A stretch of DNA of 64,000 nucleotides from Candidatus Poribacteria bacterium. GTDB taxonomy: Bacteria; Poribacteria; WGA-4E; WGA-3G. The stretch spans positions 1-64,000 of the forward strand of contig VXMD01000041.1 of the NCBI GenBank assembly GCA_009841255.1. Reading direction: 5' to 3'. The translations under genes were made by a program, and so were the position numbers. Positions 5,870 through 64,000 of the stretch are shown here, one piece after another. Positions within the stretch are counted from its first letter, which is position 1. The number at the start of each line of letters is the position of its first letter. A model generated the notes under the pieces. That model did not search any database. It was not told the DNA's origin and saw only the letters and a program-made list of their open reading frames with translations.

Positions 5870-6108
5870 AATCTTTAATAAAAAGACTTCTATCAACTGT
5901 TATACTCTGGCTTCTGATCGGCGGGTTCCTGATTATCAACATCAGTTGGGGAGAAGAGGCTACTATCTACAACTATCCATCTTTACCGCAGAAATACGTG
6001 GAGGTTTCTCATGAAAACGCGCATTCCTCTTTCAGGTCGGCGTCTGCTGGTATTGTATACCATACTCATCAGTGTTCTCTACGTTCCATCCATTGCGCTT
6101 GCGATTGA
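5866..6108 (+). other. Doubtful short ORF with signal-like N-terminus
   Basis: An 80-codon frame starts at an ATGA overlap with the LamG stop and begins MKSLIKRLLSTVILWLLIGG, which looks like a signal or membrane segment. About 98 nt of its 3' part overlap the start of the WD40-like gene in another frame, where the sequence is clearly that gene's. No good ribosome binding site is seen. It may be a remnant of a small exported protein or chance. Confidence 0.25.
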
Positions 6109-8326
6109 ACCGATCGGCTCGATTGGACAACCCGTTCCAGAACATCACGCTTTTCTTCCCGATGGAAACATCTTACGCGCCGTTCTATCACACATTCAGA
6201 TAATCGATACAGATACGGGGACGGTCATTGACGAATTTGGCGAGCGGACGGACATCAGCGATGTCGTGTTCAGTCCAACAGCCGAACATCTGGCGATTCT
6301 GAACTACTCCGCTGATGCAAGGATAACCACCATAAACATTTGGGATACCAATGCTCGGGAGCAGATAGCCGAATGGGAGATTCCTGTCCGCATCGATGTC
6401 GCAGCATTCAGTCCGGTAGGCACACTGTTTGCCATCTCTTTTAACGACGAGATTCATCTATGGAACTGGCAAATAGGGGCATTTAGAGGAAAGATGATCG
6501 GTCAACGCCGTCCGTGGGAGCGGTGTCATTCCAGTAAGGGTAGCGGCAGAACCTGTACGTCCCTCCCACGAGATCGCGCTTCGGTTTTTACCCCAGATGG
6601 TCGTTATCTCATCGTCGCATCAAATCGACCAGATGCTGAATTGTGGAATGTCAAAACCCGCCGCTTAGAAGGGCATTTTGAAGGACACACAGGGACCTGG
6701 ATCGAGGATGTGGTTATGAGTCCCGACGGAACACGCCTCGCAACGTATGAAAAAGACTGGAATGATGTCTACGTCTGGGATATAGACACACAGCAACTTT
6801 TATGGCAAGAAGAAAGCGGTATCAGTAGGATTTCTGATGTGGTGTTCAGTCCAGACAATCGACACCTGTACGTTGCGTCTCAGACGGGGACATTGAACCG
6901 GTCTGGTGGCGAACCTTGGCAAGGCTGGGATGACCACGTCCGCGTCTGGGACGTTGCGTCTGGAAAACAACTTGATGCGTTCGGCGACGATTTTTACTTC
7001 TTGAAGGCAACAGCACTCTCACCAGACGGGAAAACGATGCTTCTGCACTACTGGGATGCCGTTGTGTTGTGGAGTATCGAAAGCAAGCAGCCGTTGAACG
7101 TCTGGGCTGATTTCGTCTATAGTTGGAATGATGCATTGAGTGCTAACGGTCAGACTTTTGTTTCAGTCTCTCGCTACTTTATTAAGACATGGGATATCCC
7201 TTCACGACAAATGCGCCTACTCATCTCTGCCGAACGCGATCTCTTCCGAGAGTCTGCAATCTCTTCGGATGGTAAGAAAATCGCTATCGGACGTGACCCT
7301 TGGGTTGAGGTAAGAAATTCGCGAACAGGTGCCGTTGAAAGCCAATTTCAGTACGGTTATGGGTATTCTGACATCGCCTTCAGTTCAACAGGGAGATGGG
7401 TCGCAGCGCGGGGATTCAAGTCTATTTACCTTTTTGATCTCGAAAATCCAGAAAAGATTCAACGAGCTTTTACGGAAGATGGACCCGATATCGACATCAG
7501 TTCACTGTTTACGTTCAGTGAAAACGACGCATATTTAGCAGCCACGACTCGCACAGACGACAATCAATATTGGATTCTCCTATGGAAACGTGAAGGAGAC
7601 ATCTTCGTTTTCCAATATGCATGGCACGTGCCAGAACTCTGTAGCCAGTCAAGGCTCGATTTTGGATCTGATACAGACGGTTCACTTCTACTGGCAGTTC
7701 CCAGATACCGAGAGACTCAAATATGGAGACTCCTGCTGGATGGTCCCCAACTTGTAAAAACATTGGAGACAGGATTTCCAGTGCATTTTACCCCGGATGG
7801 TCGTTATCTCTTTGCCAGTCAAGATCGCTATCTCAAAATCTGGGATTGGAAAACAGAGACCCTTGTTGAGCATTCGCGTATTCCAGATTATTTAGCGCTT
7901 AGCCGAGATGGAACCATCCTCCTTTCGTATGCGGATACAGGACAAATTCAGATCTGGGATGCCAAGGCACTCCTACCTTCAAAGACCGTTGTTACACCAC
8001 ACGGCAAGCAGATTGTGATACTGGGAGAGGTAAAGCGGAATCAACTCCTACAAAACTTTCCTAACCCTTTCAATCCAGAAACCTGGATCCCGTTCCGACT
8101 CACAACCGAAAGTCACGTCACGATCCACATTCATAACTCCACAGGTCAGTTGGTGCGTCGCTTATCCGCAGGAACAATGCCCGCAGGCGACTATTCTTCA
8201 CAGGCACACGCCGTCTATTGGGATGGACGCAATCAAGTGGGAGAACCCGTGAGCAGTGGCGTCTATCTCTACACGATTCACGCAGACGACTTCTCCGCAA
8301 CCCGCAAAATGCTCATTCGGAAATGA
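6011..8326 (+). CDS. Exported WD40-like protein with FlgD/T9SS-like C-terminal domain (copy 1)
   Basis: 771 residues. A signal peptide (about 1-30, ending SIALA) is followed by a long array of WD40-like repeats, seen as FSPDGRYL and VYVWDI type blades, probably two propellers. The last 100 residues begin RNQLLQNFPNPFNPETWIPF and end ATRKMLIRK: an Ig-like FlgD/type IX-like C-terminal domain often used as a surface-sorting tag. GGAGG lies just before ATG 6011. A paralogue follows at 8632. Its partner and ligand are unknown; a role as cell-surface scaffold is inferred. Confidence 0.75.
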   Translation: MKTRIPLSGRRLLVLYTILISVLYVPSIALAIEPIGSIGQPVPEHHAFLPDGNILRAVLSHIQIIDTDTGTVIDEFGERTDISDVVFSPTAEHLAILNYSADARITTINIWDTNAREQIAEWEIPVRIDVAAFSPVGTLFAISFNDEIHLWNWQIGAFRGKMIGQRRPWERCHSSKGSGRTCTSLPRDRASVFTPDGRYLIVASNRPDAELWNVKTRRLEGHFEGHTGTWIEDVVMSPDGTRLATYEKDWNDVYVWDIDTQQLLWQEESGISRISDVVFSPDNRHLYVASQTGTLNRSGGEPWQGWDDHVRVWDVASGKQLDAFGDDFYFLKATALSPDGKTMLLHYWDAVVLWSIESKQPLNVWADFVYSWNDALSANGQTFVSVSRYFIKTWDIPSRQMRLLISAERDLFRESAISSDGKKIAIGRDPWVEVRNSRTGAVESQFQYGYGYSDIAFSSTGRWVAARGFKSIYLFDLENPEKIQRAFTEDGPDIDISSLFTFSENDAYLAATTRTDDNQYWILLWKREGDIFVFQYAWHVPELCSQSRLDFGSDTDGSLLLAVPRYRETQIWRLLLDGPQLVKTLETGFPVHFTPDGRYLFASQDRYLKIWDWKTETLVEHSRIPDYLALSRDGTILLSYADTGQIQIWDAKALLPSKTVVTPHGKQIVILGEVKRNQLLQNFPNPFNPETWIPFRLTTESHVTIHIHNSTGQLVRRLSAGTMPAGDYSSQAHAVYWDGRNQVGEPVSSGVYLYTIHADDFSATRKMLIRK

Positions 8327-8631: not shown

Positions 8632-10989
8632 ATGAAAACGCGAATCGCCCTTTCAAAACGAAACTTTCAAGTTTATATTACAGTCATCAGTGTTATTTGC
8701 ATCTCCTGCTCTGCTTTCGCGATGGAACCGATCGGCACAATTGGGCAACCCTTTCCAGAACAGCACGCGTTTCTCTCCAATGAAGCGATTGTGCGTGTTA
8801 CCCCAGCACACATTCAAATTATTGATACGAATACCGGTGCGCTTATAGATGAATTCGCCGAACGCGAGTATTTCAGCGATGTTGTGTTGAGTCCAGATGC
8901 CTCACATTTAGCGATTCTTACACATGCGCATGATGGAAAGCGTACGACTGTCAGTATCTGGGATGTTAATGCCCGCGAGCAAGTTAGCGAATGGAGAGTC
9001 CAATTCCGCATCTATGATGTCGCGGAGGTCGCGGCATTTAGTCCAACAGAGCCGCTGTTTGCAATCCCTTCTGAGAATGCGATTCATCTCTGGAATTGGC
9101 AGACGGGTGAGTCCCTTGGAAGGATGACAGGCACACGGCACCCATTGCAACCCTGTCATTTCTTCGACGGCGGCAGCAGTTGTGAAGGCGATCCGCGGGA
9201 TCGCACTGCGATTTTTAGTCCCGAGGGTCGCTATCTGATCATCGCCTCCATGCGTCCTGACATTGAACTCTGGAATATTGAGACGCGCCAATTAGAAGGG
9301 CACTTTGAAGGACACACCGGAAACTGGGTTGAAAAGGTCTCCATCAGTCCGGATGGAAGATACATGGCGTCATTCGAGTACAGCTCAGCTTCCGTTTACG
9401 TGTGGGATGTGGAATCGAGACAGTTACTCCGGAAAGCACAAAGCGGCATTGGAACGATTTCAGATGTGGTCTTCAGTCCGGACAGTCAACACCTATATGT
9501 CGCGACCGAGACCGATAGACTGACTTGGATTGATCCCGGACCCTGGGAGGGATGGGATGACCAGGTCCGCGTCTGGAATGTCAAATCGGGGCAACACATC
9601 GACACGTTTGGCAGTGAGTTCCGCGAATTGGAAGAAATCACGCTATCACCGAACGGGAAAATTGCGCTCCTGCACTATTGGGATGCCGTCGTGATATGGG
9701 ATATAGAAAAGAAGCGACCCCTGAACGTGTGGACTGATTTTCTCAGAGATCGGTTCTACAATGTGGTGAAGTTGAGTCCTGATGGAAAAACCGTAGGTGC
9801 CACCTCTCGATATTTTATTAAGACGTGGGATGTCGCGTCCCAGCAGATGAAACGCATCGTTTCTGCAGAAGATGCCACGTTTGAAGGACTCGCCATCTCT
9901 CCAGATAGTCGGAAACTCGCTGTCCGCAGGGACCGGTGGGTGGAGGTCCGCAATCTTCAGACCGGTAACATTGAACTCCAATTTCCGCAGTCCACTGGGT
10001 GGCTTGAAGAAATTGTCTTCAGTACCTCTGGAAGGTGGATTGCGACAGTGGGAGTGGGGGACTGGCAGCCTCTCTCTATTTTGGACACCCAAAATAGAGA
10101 GAAACCCCAGGAACTTACGTCAAAAAATGGACCTGTATCGCTACATAATCATTACCAGATCGTCTTCAGTGAAAACGACGAGTATTTCGCGGCTTCCGGC
10201 AGATCGAAAGACGATCAAGATTGGATTCAATTATGGAAACGCGAGGGCAACACTTTCGGCTTTCAATATGGATGGCAGGTCCCAGACCTTCTTCATAGCC
10301 CAATTCCAACACTCGCCTTTGCCTCTCACACAGATGGTTCAACGGTGTTAGCAGCATCCGAAGAATTGGAACTCCACATCTGGAAACTCTTGTCAGACAG
10401 TCCCCAACTTCTAACAACCTTGGATGGAAGATATCAGCCAGTGCACTTTAGTCCAGAGGGTCGCTATCTCTTTGCCCGGCGAGACGGTTCCACCCAGGTC
10501 TGGGAGTGGCAGACAGAAACACCCCTTGAGCATCCATCTATTCCGGTATATTTTGACATCAGTCGAGATGGATCTATTCTGCTTTCGGAGGCAGTCAGCG
10601 GTCAGATCCGCATCTGGGATGGAAGCGCACTGTTACCTTCACAACCCGTTGCCGTTGAACCCGGAGGTAAACAGATTGTCATGCTGGGAGAAGTGAAACG
10701 GAATCAACTCCTACAAAACTTCCCCAACCCTTTCAACCCGGAAACCTGGATCCCGTTCCGACTCGCAAATGAAAGTCACGTCACGATCCACATTTATAAT
10801 ACCGCGGGTCAATTGGTGCGTCGCTTATCCGCAGGAACAATGCCTGCAGGCGACTATTCTTCACAGGCACAAGCTGTTTATTGGGATGGACGCAATCAAG
10901 TGGGTGAACCTGTGAGCAGTGGCGTCTATCTCTACACGATTCATGCAGGCGACTTCTCCGCAACCCGCAAAATGCTCATTCGAAAATGA
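8632..10989 (+). CDS. Exported WD40-like protein with FlgD/T9SS-like C-terminal domain (copy 2)
   Basis: 785 residues, same architecture as the gene at 6011: signal peptide (ending SCSAFA), WD40-like blades (FSPDSQHLYVA, VYVWDVES) and a C-terminal domain from RNQLLQNFPNPFNPETWIPF to ATRKMLIRK. The start has GGAGGTTTCTC, the same ribosome binding region as its twin. The repeat regions have diverged clearly between the twins, whereas the C-terminal domains are nearly identical even at DNA level. It has its own sigma-54 promoter at 8506. It is probably exported and surface-attached; the function is unknown. Confidence 0.75.
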   Translation: MKTRIALSKRNFQVYITVISVICISCSAFAMEPIGTIGQPFPEQHAFLSNEAIVRVTPAHIQIIDTNTGALIDEFAEREYFSDVVLSPDASHLAILTHAHDGKRTTVSIWDVNAREQVSEWRVQFRIYDVAEVAAFSPTEPLFAIPSENAIHLWNWQTGESLGRMTGTRHPLQPCHFFDGGSSCEGDPRDRTAIFSPEGRYLIIASMRPDIELWNIETRQLEGHFEGHTGNWVEKVSISPDGRYMASFEYSSASVYVWDVESRQLLRKAQSGIGTISDVVFSPDSQHLYVATETDRLTWIDPGPWEGWDDQVRVWNVKSGQHIDTFGSEFRELEEITLSPNGKIALLHYWDAVVIWDIEKKRPLNVWTDFLRDRFYNVVKLSPDGKTVGATSRYFIKTWDVASQQMKRIVSAEDATFEGLAISPDSRKLAVRRDRWVEVRNLQTGNIELQFPQSTGWLEEIVFSTSGRWIATVGVGDWQPLSILDTQNREKPQELTSKNGPVSLHNHYQIVFSENDEYFAASGRSKDDQDWIQLWKREGNTFGFQYGWQVPDLLHSPIPTLAFASHTDGSTVLAASEELELHIWKLLSDSPQLLTTLDGRYQPVHFSPEGRYLFARRDGSTQVWEWQTETPLEHPSIPVYFDISRDGSILLSEAVSGQIRIWDGSALLPSQPVAVEPGGKQIVMLGEVKRNQLLQNFPNPFNPETWIPFRLANESHVTIHIYNTAGQLVRRLSAGTMPAGDYSSQAQAVYWDGRNQVGEPVSSGVYLYTIHAGDFSATRKMLIRK

Positions 10990-57086: not shown

Positions 57087-59573
<2,487 letters not shown>

Positions 59574-59624
59574 CGCATTTCTCCTTATATTGGTTATCGG
59601 TTCGTTCCGCTACGCTCCACTTTC

Positions 59625-59666
59625 GGTTATTGGTTGTTGGTTATAAGTTATAAGTTATAAGTTAAG
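59625..59666. repeat. Intergenic heptamer array
   Basis: Six heptamers in strict phase: GGTTATT, GGTTGTT, GGTTATA, AGTTATA, AGTTATA, AGTTAAG. A second array (GGTTCTT, GGTTGTT, GGTTATA, AGTTAAG) is at 59772-59799. Confidence 0.7.
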
Positions 59667-59785
59667 GGTCTCTCGCTAAACGATAACCTCTGTAAGGGTT
59701 GGGAATGTAATACAAGGAACGGATTTACTCTATTTAAAGACTAAATCCCCCAACCCCTACGACAACCTATTGGTTCTTGGTTGTT

Positions 59786-59855
59786 GGTTATAAGTTAAGA
59801 GCTCACAAAGACCCTCTTAACTTATAACCTAAAGGTTTTTTCGGAAGAAAAAACC
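59786..59855. terminator. Two strong hairpins formed by repeat units
   Basis: GGTTATAAGTTAAGAG (59786-59801) pairs perfectly with 59814-59829 (16 bp, loop 12). GGTTTTTTC (59834-59842) pairs with GAAAAAACC (59847-59855), 9 bp with loop GGAA. They could end or attenuate transcription in either direction. Confidence 0.5.
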
Positions 59856-59919
59856 GAACCTATAACCTATAACCCTTTTCGTAGAAAAACCGTACCGACG
59901 ACTGATAACCGTAAACTAT

Positions 59920-61047
59920 TCACCTTTCATAGATAGGCAAGAGGCGATAGTTCAACGCCAAAGCGAGGATAGCCATACCGGTGCCGTAGGCTCTGCCATG
60001 GGAACTCGCGAAACTGCCATCTTCTGCCTGCGTCTTCTGGAGCCACTCGATGGTTCTTTGATTCCAAGCCTTCCACGCCTCAAAATCACTTTGAAACAGA
60101 GCTTGCGCCATGTAGTAGAGATTATAGAACAGGTGTCCACTGCCGCGATGGTCAATGCGACGCTTGATGAACTCGGAAGCGGCTTTATACTCAGGTGTAT
60201 CTTTTCTTTTCGCAATCGCATAAATCAGGGTCCCGATCGCCGTCCGAGTGAGTCCACCCCCATGACTGCTCGCCATCTGATACGTTACAGTTCCATCTTG
60301 CATCGTGTGTGTCTGGAAAAAACTCACCGCTTTATCAACGGCTTCGTTGGGAATCTCAATACCGGCGTTTCGAGCACCGAGTATGCCCATCAACACGGTT
60401 CCAGCGACAGTTGTGTCGGCATCTTGGGAATCTGGGGAGTAACGCCAAGCACCCCACGGGTTCTTCTGCTGTGAAGTCAGTGAAGAGCGCACCGCCAGTT
60501 CCAACGCCTCGCTCAGGGGGCGTCGCCGTCCTGACGGAACATCGCTCCCTTCCCAGAGCAGTCGTTCACTTACTGCACCATACGCTTCTGAGAGTGCTAG
60601 CAAAGCAAAACCGTGTTGGTACATGGATCCGTGTCCGCCCCAAGTGCTACCGATGTACCCCGTCCGCGCATCCTGATTGGAGATAATATTGCGTAACGCC
60701 TTACGGATGGTCGTCGCATAAGGACCGAAATCCGGGTCTTCGCCACTCGCCATCAATGCCATAACACAAATTCCCGTTACGCCGGGTCCACTTCCCGCTC
60801 CCGACCAACCGCCATCCTCCATTTGCGAGTTAACGAGATAGCGTAAACCGCGGTCATTGATGATCCGAACCGCTGCAGGAACACCTGTCCCATAGCGGAG
60901 GGCAACATCCTGTGCATAAGTCGGTTCAATTGAAAAAGTAACCAGTAACCAGTAACCAGTAACCAGTAACCAATAACTGGAAACTTCTTTACTGAAAACT
61001 GGAAACTTTGAAACTTTAGCACACTTTACAGACTTTGAAATTTTCAT
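59920..61047 (-). CDS. Alpha/alpha-toroid (prenyltransferase/squalene cyclase repeat) protein with repeat-derived signal peptide
   Basis: 375 residues from ATG 61047, which has GGAGGAGG just upstream (a GTG 18 nt earlier is unlikely). QW-like repeats (QMEDGGWSG, QKNPWGAWRYSP, QAEDGSFAS) mark the terpenoid-cyclase/prenyltransferase fold. The DxDD motif of cyclases appears only as DADT, so cyclase activity is doubtful. The hydrophobic core of the export signal (YWLLVTGYWLLVT) is encoded by five GGTTACT heptamers. It follows the secreted paralogue gene by 5 nt, so it is in one operon; such toroid proteins often sit with MoxR/VWA-type operons in related phyla. Confidence 0.75.
   Translation of the reverse strand: MKISKSVKCAKVSKFPVFSKEVSSYWLLVTGYWLLVTFSIEPTYAQDVALRYGTGVPAAVRIINDRGLRYLVNSQMEDGGWSGAGSGPGVTGICVMALMASGEDPDFGPYATTIRKALRNIISNQDARTGYIGSTWGGHGSMYQHGFALLALSEAYGAVSERLLWEGSDVPSGRRRPLSEALELAVRSSLTSQQKNPWGAWRYSPDSQDADTTVAGTVLMGILGARNAGIEIPNEAVDKAVSFFQTHTMQDGTVTYQMASSHGGGLTRTAIGTLIYAIAKRKDTPEYKAASEFIKRRIDHRGSGHLFYNLYYMAQALFQSDFEAWKAWNQRTIEWLQKTQAEDGSFASSHGRAYGTGMAILALALNYRLLPIYER
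60937..60978. repeat. Heptamer array encoding a signal-peptide core
   Basis: Five units of AGTAACC (60937-60971) plus AATAACT, GGTTACT on the coding strand. Translated as a period of 7 residues: YWLLVTG. GGAAACT-like units continue to about 61010. Confidence 0.8.
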
Positions 61048-61052
61048 GATGA

Positions 61053-62849
61053 TTACCTCCTCCACCCAATCGGACCGAATACACGCTTAAACTCATCCTG
61101 CTGCCACGGCGTCAGGACTTCAAAGTCTACCGTCTGTGGAAAAAGTTGGAAAAACATCGAGATCGAAGAACTTCCCTCCTTAAGTGGACCGGGAACCAAC
61201 TGCGACGCTGCCGTTTCCAACTGCCCCCGTTGCATGTCATCCAAAAGCAGCTGTATATCTATGCACGCCACCACCATACCCCGCAATGCCTGTTGACGTA
61301 AAGCCTCTCTTTCGGCTCGATGTTCGCTATACGCCGCAAATGCCTCTTCAGAAAGCACATCTTTGATGGTCTGCTGATAGAGACCATCTCTTGTAATGTC
61401 TGAAGCACTGGCCTCACCCCTTCGGCTGTTTATTCTATCTTCATCTCGTAAATTTTTCCGCATGGCTTGAAGCCTTATAGCAGCTTGTTTGCGAGTCATT
61501 GCATCCGCTTCGACAACCTTCAGGAGTCGTCTCTCAAACTCCTGAAGTATCGCCTCGCCGGCTTCATCACGGGCTTCAATGTACTCTTGCGCTACACCTT
61601 TAGTGACAAGTGCCAAACGCCAAGCGGCACGTTCGTCGAGGGGACCTAATAATTCGGTATGCGCTGCGAGTTTGGCTTCGGCAATCTCCATCATTTGCTC
61701 TGGAGATTCCACTGTGTCGGCATTCAGTTCAATCCAAGGTGGCAGTTTCCCAGGCGGATCAACCACTATATCCTCAATGACTGCTTTAAATTGTTTTTCC
61801 ATTTCAACAAAGGGTCCGGGGATGACTACTTCAAATTCTTCTTCCATCTCAATAAGGGTTTCGGGGTCGACGACAAAAACTCGTTCTATGTTTGTATTCG
61901 CGTTAACCAACTCTCGCCAAACCTTGGACTGTGCCTCACTCAAGACGCCATCCAGAGAGATTTTCAGCCTGTAGTGTGCCAACTGTGCCGCCTGTTCTGG
62001 ACTGAGCCACAACGCGTTCATTGTGTTCGGAAAAACTCCGCTCTCTGCTGTATCAAGCAAGGACTGCCCCACTTTTTCGCGTTGATCTGCTCTTAAACTG
62101 AGTTCCTTATCGAGTGTAACAGCGATCCACTGAACGACTGCCTGTCGATCCCGAACCTCTCGTGCCGCTATAAATTCCAAATAATCCTGAAGCTGCACCT
62201 CGCTCAAGTGTTTCGCGAACGCCGCTTGGCAGCCTGGATGTGCCAATAGCATCTCAAGCAACGACATGTTTCCTTCTTCCACCGCTCTTGCGAAGACACC
62301 CAGACCACCGTCCTGTTCCAAGGTACTTTCAATTGAATTGAGAATGGATTGATGAAATGCATTGATAACCGTCTCGTCCAGCGCATAACGCTTACCGACG
62401 CCTTCGACAACGCGTTGGATCAGGGACACAATTCGTTGTTTGATAACAATGTTCACTCTTTCATTCGGATGCACTTTAACGAAGGGTTCGATATCGCCCT
62501 TCCGTGTCGTTTTGAACGAGACTAAGTGTTTCCCACCATCAACGACGGTAACAGGTTCCCCAGTTCGCTCGTTGTATCCCTCTTTAGATATACGAATCAA
62601 GTAGCGTCCGGCAGGAAGTCCAGCCTGTTTGTACTTTCCATTGACATCCGTTTTTGTTGTCCATGCCTTTCCGCTGTCGCTGGCAACAATCTTGACCGTA
62701 ACATCCTCAATTGGGTTCTGAGCTGACGTTAGGTCAGTAATCAGTCCATCGACGGTCCCACCCTTCAGGGCATCGTCCCGCGCAAAGACGATACCGAACA
62801 ACATACTGACACAAGCAACCATTATTAATACATATCGTAAATGACGCAT
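61053..62849 (-). CDS. Secreted protein with carboxypeptidase-regulatory-like domain, tandem paralogue 1
   Basis: 598 residues from ATG 62849 (AGGAGGATC upstream); an earlier start at 62882 adds 11 residues. The signal peptide ends IVFA-RDD. Residues about 30-115 are a carboxypeptidase-regulatory-like/CNA-B-type beta sandwich (GGTVDGLITDL, DVNGKYKQAGLPAGRYLIRISKEGY in two parts). The rest is mainly helical, rich in Glu/Ala/Arg with phrases such as LSPEQAAQLAHYRLKISLDGVLSEAQSKVW, similar to heavy-metal-binding or periplasmic Spy-like helices. It ends VFGPIGWRR. A close paralogue precedes it. The function is unknown. Confidence 0.65.
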   Translation of the reverse strand: MRHLRYVLIMVACVSMLFGIVFARDDALKGGTVDGLITDLTSAQNPIEDVTVKIVASDSGKAWTTKTDVNGKYKQAGLPAGRYLIRISKEGYNERTGEPVTVVDGGKHLVSFKTTRKGDIEPFVKVHPNERVNIVIKQRIVSLIQRVVEGVGKRYALDETVINAFHQSILNSIESTLEQDGGLGVFARAVEEGNMSLLEMLLAHPGCQAAFAKHLSEVQLQDYLEFIAAREVRDRQAVVQWIAVTLDKELSLRADQREKVGQSLLDTAESGVFPNTMNALWLSPEQAAQLAHYRLKISLDGVLSEAQSKVWRELVNANTNIERVFVVDPETLIEMEEEFEVVIPGPFVEMEKQFKAVIEDIVVDPPGKLPPWIELNADTVESPEQMMEIAEAKLAAHTELLGPLDERAAWRLALVTKGVAQEYIEARDEAGEAILQEFERRLLKVVEADAMTRKQAAIRLQAMRKNLRDEDRINSRRGEASASDITRDGLYQQTIKDVLSEEAFAAYSEHRAEREALRQQALRGMVVACIDIQLLLDDMQRGQLETAASQLVPGPLKEGSSSISMFFQLFPQTVDFEVLTPWQQDEFKRVFGPIGWRR

Positions 62850-62869
62850 CTGTTTTGATCCTCCTGTAA

Positions 62870-64000
62870 TCATCTCCGCCACATCATTGGACCGAACACC
62901 CGCTTAAACTCATCCTGCTGCCACGGTGTCAGGACTTCAAAATCTACCGTCTGTGGAAAGAGTTGGAAAAACATTGAGGTCGACGAGCTTCCCTCCTTAA
63001 GCGGACCGGGAACCAACTGCGACGCTGCCGTTTCTAATTGCTCCCGTTGCATGTCACCCAAAAGCAGTTGCATATCCATGCACGCCACCACCATACCACG
63101 TAACGCCTGTTGATGCAAAGTTTCTCTCTCGGCTTGGTACTCGCTATACCGCGCAAACGTTTCTTCAGAAAGGACATCTTTGATCGCTTGTTGGTACATC
63201 GGATGACTTGTAATGTCAGCCTTCGTCTCTTCATCTCTGTGTAACCTGCCCATCGCTTCCTTCATAGTGCGTTGGAGCATCGCTGTTGCCTCTTCACGAG
63301 TCATCTCCCCAGCTTCGACTTTTTTTCTGAGAGCCGTTTCAGCTTCCCGGGATATCGCTTCGAGACTTTCCCCTTGGGCTTCAATGTATTGTTGCGCGAC
63401 ACCTTTAGTGACGAGTGCCAGACGCCGAGCGGCACGTTCGTCAAGGGCACCTAACAACGCGGTATGCGCTGCGATTTTGGCTTCGGCGATCTCCATCATT
63501 TGCTCTGGAGTTTTCGCTGTATCGGTGTTAATAGGGTTAATTTCAATCCAAGGTTGCATCCCTTGCGGGTCAATCACTATATCCTCAATGACGACTTCAA
63601 CTTCTCCCTCTATCCCAAGATGCGCATCTGGTTCATTGGGGATAAATACAAATTTCTTGTTCGGGCCGGCAACGCCTTTCGCATCTATCCTATCAACCTC
63701 GATTACCCTCTTGATGCCGATTTCGGGTGCGATGATAAACATATCCACTTCGTTTGCTCTTGCATTAACTAATCCCTGCCAGACTTTGGACTGCGCCTCA
63801 CTCAAAACACCCTCCAAAGAGACTTTCAACCTGTAGTGTGCCAGCTGTGCCGCCTGTTCTGGACCGAGCCGCAATGCATTCATTGCGTTCGGAAAAAGTT
63901 CGTTCTCTGCTGTATCAAGCAAGGACTGCACAACCTTTTCGCGTTGATCGGCTCTCAAACTGAGTTCCTTATCGAGTGTAACAGTGATCCACTGAATGAC
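62870..64000 (-). CDS. Tandem paralogue 2, 5' part beyond the window
   Basis: The frame is open to the window edge; at least 376 residues are visible. From WITVTLDKELSLRADQREKV onward it follows the downstream paralogue closely and ends VFGPMMWRR. The first methionine seen (63958) is internal, not a start: the reading frame continues upstream with VIQW, matching VVQW of its twin. Its stop lies 20 nt before the start of the twin. Confidence 0.7.
   Translation of the reverse strand, partial: VIQWITVTLDKELSLRADQREKVVQSLLDTAENELFPNAMNALRLGPEQAAQLAHYRLKVSLEGVLSEAQSKVWQGLVNARANEVDMFIIAPEIGIKRVIEVDRIDAKGVAGPNKKFVFIPNEPDAHLGIEGEVEVVIEDIVIDPQGMQPWIEINPINTDTAKTPEQMMEIAEAKIAAHTALLGALDERAARRLALVTKGVAQQYIEAQGESLEAISREAETALRKKVEAGEMTREEATAMLQRTMKEAMGRLHRDEETKADITSHPMYQQAIKDVLSEETFARYSEYQAERETLHQQALRGMVVACMDMQLLLGDMQREQLETAASQLVPGPLKEGSSSTSMFFQLFPQTVDFEVLTPWQQDEFKRVFGPMMWRR

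Follow-up and report, generated by a model that had tools for sequence, protein, structure and literature searches.

The locus and its signal peptide

The stretch of DNA analysed here, called the window in the following, comprises the first 64,000 nucleotides of contig VXMD01000041.1 of a sponge-associated bacterium, Candidatus Poribacteria bacterium (assembly GCA_009841255.1). It contains, on the minus strand, a gene whose 5' end includes an array of five GGTTACT heptamers, and this array, interpreted below as an arm of a hairpin element with dispersed copies, is the subject of this study. The features at the locus are:

59920..61047 (-): gene for a predicted exported squalene-cyclase-like protein of 375 amino acids (open reading frame list, orthologs, Pfam and NCBIfam matches below the cut-off)
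61056..61063 (-): Shine-Dalgarno sequence GGAGGAGG, 8 nt 5' of the ATG (sequence, strong in Shine-Dalgarno scoring)
60913..61047 (-): predicted signal peptide, residues 1-45, with probable cleavage at EPTYA↓QDVAL (visual alignment of the N-termini of 30 orthologs, conserved A/T-x-A↓Q end, hydrophobicity)
60972..61007 (-): putative left arm together with the short core, AGTTTCC AGTTTTC AGTAAAG AAGTTTCC AGTTATT, in the n-region (sequence, hairpin fold z of -4.1)
60937..60971 (-): putative right arm, consisting of five GGTTACT units that correspond to residues 25-37, the hydrophobic core (direct reading, Tandem Repeats Finder, chance estimate, hydrophobicity)

The open frame extends over 59920-61065(-), with the ATG at 61047 and 375 codons ending at 59920. 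The likeness to squalene cyclases and prenyltransferases is weak, as the Pfam match scores 23.5 bits, short of the 26.1-bit cut-off, and the NCBIfam match also lies below its cut-off. The gene shares the N-terminal start MK(V/I)SKSVKCAKV with its close relatives, and the signal peptide together with the beginning of the mature protein reads MKISKSVKCAKVSKFPVFSKEVSS-YWLLVTGYWLLVT-FSIEPTYA↓QDVALRYG. Features of a Sec signal peptide are present, namely an n-region rich in K and R, an h-region core that falls inside the range of the orthologs or borders on it, and a TYA↓Q end like theirs. The left arm is also situated within the signal peptide, so that both arms are read there.

The five units at 60971-60937(-) are perfect and are translated as YWLLVTGYWLLVT, while Tandem Repeats Finder reports AGTAACC with 5.9 copies at 60937-60977 and 97% matches. 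Three units with at most three mismatches have a chance expectation of 0.00 in the window, and the four overlapping matches that were seen all belong to the array. The best 12-residue Kyte-Doolittle mean of the core is 1.87, compared with 1.92-3.15 for the orthologs. Its score is 0.01 on the Hessa scale, where the orthologs span -0.20 to 0.02, and -0.77 on the octanol scale, where they span -0.99 to -0.49; on these two scales lower values are better. Removal of the repeat peptide changes these scores to 0.70, 0.82 and 0.30, respectively, and therefore no hydrophobic core remains without the repeat. The original prediction that the five units encode the hydrophobic core of a signal peptide was thus borne out by the direct reading, Tandem Repeats Finder and the hydrophobicity scales, and also by the orthologs described below.

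Replacement of the ancestral core

An ortholog match was found in 39 of the 60 relatives searched, including most genomes of the genus. In 28 of the 30 ortholog N-termini that were read, an ordinary hydrophobic core such as GFSSFLIML or SFFLVLLVI occupies the place of the repeat and precedes a similar end, SIE-x-x-YA↓Q and variants thereof. The two exceptions are the window genome (G000) and a second genome (G005), in which a heptamer block, reading HQSPVSSFQFPVKSPLFWLLVTGYWLLLLILETYAQ in G005, stands instead of the old core. A normal signal peptide downstream of the repeats in homologues, or a start codon after them, had been named as observations that would speak against the prediction. The normal core of the orthologs lies at the same place as the repeat, and Shine-Dalgarno and start scoring of the gene gave no start codon between the repeat and the mature protein.

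In a tree of the mature protein, G000 and G005 belong to separate clades (support 100/99), each among relatives without the block, and therefore the replacement occurred twice; as far as can be judged from this tree, it is independent in the two genomes. In sister species (L002, L004, L006, L008, L015), this signal peptide begins with a different long leader, KSVKCAKVRKVVNNF...GKVGNRSS, which is another repeat-like insertion and is missing in L005.

GGTTACT arrays as signal peptide cores in the genus

Since seven is not a multiple of three, a GGTTACT array encodes one heptapeptide, GYWLLVT, in all three frames, and its reverse strand has a stop in each frame. The genus contains 67 distinct GGTTACT arrays of about four or more units, 35 of which continue open into a frame that follows them. 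Of these 35, 15 supply the core, wholly or in part, of a signal peptide or lipoprotein signal peptide, and they belong to nine gene families: A (window, L388), B (L364, L407), C (L406), E (L370, L395, L421), F (L371, L391, L400), G (L234), H (L383), I (L403) and J (L375). In families E, G and H, residues of the gene itself make up part of the core, and the true start codon is ambiguous in family C (L406) and family G. For none of the 15 arrays was a start found further 3' from which a normal signal peptide would result. The remaining open arrays are partly located just 5' of gene starts, for example those of six MWHI permease genes, and otherwise lie in short, doubtful frames. In these permease-like genes (MWHIAKRE...; L381, L392, L401, L404, L414, L425), the element ends directly 5' of the start codon, an arrangement that is also seen in L064, L067 and L050.

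None of the 67 arrays was found inside a soluble protein. In-frame copies within soluble proteins carry other units, such as GGAAACT, GGCAACT and similar ones, and this split of units between signal peptides and soluble proteins (11 vs. 7 independent events, classified by hand with families E and F counted conservatively) has a p of about 3e-5.

For families A, B, C and D, the earlier signal peptide can be seen in relatives that lack the element; family D (L235) adds a signal peptide in which the arm is mixed. In family B, where the element follows directly 3' of the start codon, a relative reads MKTALILSFFAVSVAVGA and G000 reads MSYQLPVTSLQLRKTVSRSACVTGYWLLVTGYFFSFFFISVAVGA. In one family B signal peptide (L278, genome G016), a second, different palindrome (CGTAAGGGCTGGGTTACCCAGCCCCTAC) is found in frame in the loop of the element. 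The L235 protein carries a type IX secretion sorting domain at its end, and two tandem relatives of its family are located at 6026-8323 and 8671-10986(+) of the window.

The dispersed hairpin element

The element has the architecture (CCAGTNN)n - core - (NNACTGG)n, and the array in the window corresponds to one arm of a compact copy. In fuller copies the core between the arms reads AGTTAAGAGG...CCTCTTAACT. The pattern CCAGTNNCCAGTNNCCAGT matches 20 times in G000 and 0-157 times per genome in the genus, compared with 0-8 times for the reversed control. The predicted folds are regular CCAGT:ACTGG ladders with two-base internal loops, with z values of -4.1 and -5.5 for the two family A signal peptide copies and -6.1 and -7.3 for two fuller copies. 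Among elements with both arms in G000, G004, G005 and G006, the two arms use the same, fully complementary unit in only 3 of 52 cases (expected 8.7, p about 0.02).

In a census of four genomes, 91 clusters were placed, of which 71 are intergenic, 14 lie within genes and 6 at gene edges; these counts are approximate, because they rest on gene calls from a simple home-made caller that put at least one signal peptide copy (L042) among the intergenic ones. Intergenic copies often lie within a few nucleotides of the stop codon of the preceding gene or of the start of the following one. Outside signal peptides, in-frame copies occur in carA, carB, a methyltransferase-like gene, a 1505-aa protein (two copies), a 1113-aa protein and an 828-aa neighbour protein in the window. 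The site in carA is short and empty in 12 genomes (12 residues) and measures 28-44 residues in 17 genomes. The inserts of different species are built from TCAGTTA, TCAGCCA, CCAGTCC with GGCAACT, TCGGTTG or CCGAAAG, and since different heptamers occupy a fixed site with the frame kept, the arms turn over at that site. Across the carA orthologs (L330-L359), units are wholly different between species, and hairpin and frame are conserved. In one genome (G006, L226:1688-7711), five copies are present within about 5 kb around carA-carB: before carA, in frame in carA, between the two genes, in frame in carB and after carB.

Six element-bearing loci gave no Rfam match above the gathering score. Outside Poribacteria (L082-L161), extended heptamer arms in the two-armed arrangement CCAGTNNCCAGT-(15-45)-ACTGGNNACTGG were also observed, the matches listed including Acidobacteria, Gemmatimonadetes, Planctomycetes, Cyanobacteria, Bacteroidetes, Verrucomicrobia, Omnitrophota and Clostridium, of which the weaker ones may be due to chance.

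Frame keeping

According to the original prediction, a change by one unit shifts the frame and a change by three units adds seven residues, so that repeat length could switch export or expression on and off. The arithmetic is correct, and together with the five perfect units at the locus and the variation of arm length between species it would allow a phase-variable switch. However, no off state was found among the orthologs examined, and all 15 coding GGTTACT arrays, all seven copies of the lipoprotein family C, all readable carA copies and every ortholog read for families A, B and C are in frame. The seven genomes that share the family C element have left arms of 8, 5 or 2 units, with exact differences of 21 nt between them. 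In-frame copies and 21-nt steps therefore indicate selection for keeping the frame; this comparison, which is one between species with one allele per assembly, points to a kept frame and not to a frame switch, and makes the switch the least probable of the explanations considered here.

Origin of the signal peptide core

We consider it probable, with good confidence, that the array represents the right arm of a hairpin element which is dispersed and apparently non-autonomous, and that this GGTTACT arm now serves as the core. A copy of the element would have entered the 5' end of the gene, the old hydrophobic core would have been lost, and the GGTTACT arm would have taken over its role. As a stop-free heptamer array, a copy in this orientation would add hydrophobic residues at any point of entry, the sole requirement being that the frame 3' of the array is kept. 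Signal peptides require hydrophobicity and not an exact sequence. Hydrophobic copies may thus be tolerated or favoured there, because hydrophobicity matters at this place and exact sequence does not, and copies in soluble proteins would be kept with hydrophilic units (GNWKLET, QLATGNW). The repeat, the replacement with its independent recurrence, the element architecture, the empty sites and the frame keeping can be read from the sequences compared; the element presumably spreads by transposition or copying, and selection is likely to have picked the hydrophobic unit.

An origin without a mobile element, in which a heptamer-like seed in the old signal peptide (TTTTCCAGTTTCCTG, encoding FSSFL) was expanded in place by local slippage, would fit the presence of TTTTCCAGTTTCC or similar sequences in the core of many orthologs, as well as the clear variation of heptamer arrays in length and unit between species. 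This origin is nevertheless unlikely for the locus, as two arms and a core are present in the block, as in the dispersed copies elsewhere in the genome, the FSSFL seed is absent from the clade of G000, and carA offers true empty sites. It is more improbable still that the repeat put a functional signal peptide out of action and that export was lost in G000 in the course of gene degeneration. The Kyte-Doolittle hydrophobicity of the G000 core, which is marginally low, would agree with such a loss, but the frame is intact over 375 codons, the identity to the closest orthologs amounts to 87-93%, the terminal branch is short, and GYWLLVT-type peptides recur in 15 signal peptides.

Several observations weigh against the recruitment of a hairpin element as the core. 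The heptamer-like seed (TTTCCAGTTTCC / TTTTCCAGTTTCC) in the old core of many relatives makes a local expansion possible in G005. The G000 core lies slightly under the Kyte-Doolittle range of the orthologs, but inside their range on the two other scales. Inverted arms are present and the junctions in families B, C and D show replacement, but no clear target-site duplication was found at these junctions, and no mobilising enzyme or linked transposase was identified for the element. A Y1 (RAYT-type) transposase was rejected as the mobiliser, since its counts do not follow those of the element (Spearman rho 0.12, p 0.48, 38 genomes). Furthermore, most of the genomes compared are metagenome assemblies, and export by the repeat-core signal peptide is a prediction from sequence features.

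Comparison with known repeats

In behaviour, the Rickettsia palindromic elements (RPE), as described in PMC10969869, are the closest known analogue. They are short dispersed hairpin repeats that lie in frame in unrelated protein genes including metabolic enzymes, and the same behaviour is met here in carA, carB, the methyltransferase-like gene and others. Compared by description, RPE measure about 150 bp and encode a conserved peptide, in contrast to the tandem heptamer arms with unit turnover and the hydrophobic unit recurring in signal peptides described here (PMC10969869).

In sequence and in position near gene starts, the closest known repeats are the TAACTGA heptamers of Beggiatoaceae, Cyanobacteria and Bacteroidetes (MacGregor, 2015; PMC4679880). 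In the sections considered, these are described as direct repeats, mostly intergenic and near start codons, of which one strand has stops in all frames and the other encodes the single heptapeptide LSVISYQ at protein ends; the coding of one heptapeptide by the stop-free strand was thus already noted there. Those sections describe hardly any inverted copies, in contrast to the hairpin-paired arms here, and report no use in signal peptides (PMC4679880). TCAGTTA/TAACTGA units are present in the carA copies of the genus.

The original prediction had compared the array with the short tandemly repeated repetitive (STRR) sequences of Cyanobacteria. The resemblance in the heptamer holds, and the element shares with STRR and TAACTGA the tandem direct heptamers and the dispersed, mostly intergenic location (71 of 91 clusters), with the paired arms as an extra feature; the element itself is a hairpin element in Poribacteria. 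According to the part considered of Rehm (2015; PMC4692102), STRR and GGGNATC heptamers resemble it in the seven-base unit and the mostly intergenic location near gene ends, and GGGNATC differs in its G-rich unit, its proposed quadruplexes and its under-representation in coding regions.

Miniature inverted-repeat transposable elements (MITE) and repetitive extragenic palindromic (REP) sequences are likewise dispersed, apparently non-autonomous, hairpin-forming and mostly intergenic. Unlike these, the element has arms that are tandem arrays, no linked transposase or target duplication was found for it, and its copy number does not follow Y1 counts.

In the open-licence literature, as far as its texts were covered, no report was found of such repeats being used as a signal peptide core, and no paper was found on encoded peptides such as GYWLLVTG or GNWKLETGN. 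The recurrent recruitment of a repeat as signal peptide core appears to be new.

Significance

The locus provides a concrete natural case of a signal peptide core that would have arisen at one stroke from repetitive DNA, with the states before and after the event preserved in close relatives. Translation of stop-free heptamer repeats carries unusually little risk, because seven is not divisible by three and one peptide results in all frames, and this arithmetic predicts where units are placed, with hydrophobic units in signal peptides and hydrophilic ones in loops. The scattered reports of heptamer repeats are also tied to a two-armed hairpin architecture, the pattern of which occurs in many phyla among the matches listed. 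More tentatively, and with somewhat less than even confidence, the element may act as a portable donor of signal peptide cores in the genus, a GGTTACT copy at the 5' end of a gene being a ready-made export signal that would repeatedly rewire signal peptides and perhaps export formerly internal proteins.

Other features of the window

57314..57389 (-): repeat feature (Tandem Repeats Finder and element census)

The neighbouring leader AAAGTGTGCTAAAGT was considered as a dispersed repeat and rejected, as it occurs at a single place in the genome, and no tRNA was found in the window. The gap 3' of the gene (59574-59919) contains further short heptamer arrays (GGTTATT, GTTATAA, TTGGTTC, AACCTAT). 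The adjacent genes at 61053-62882 and 62870-64000(-) are similar to each other, which suggests a tandem duplication, and the first of them carries a CarboxypepD_reg domain.
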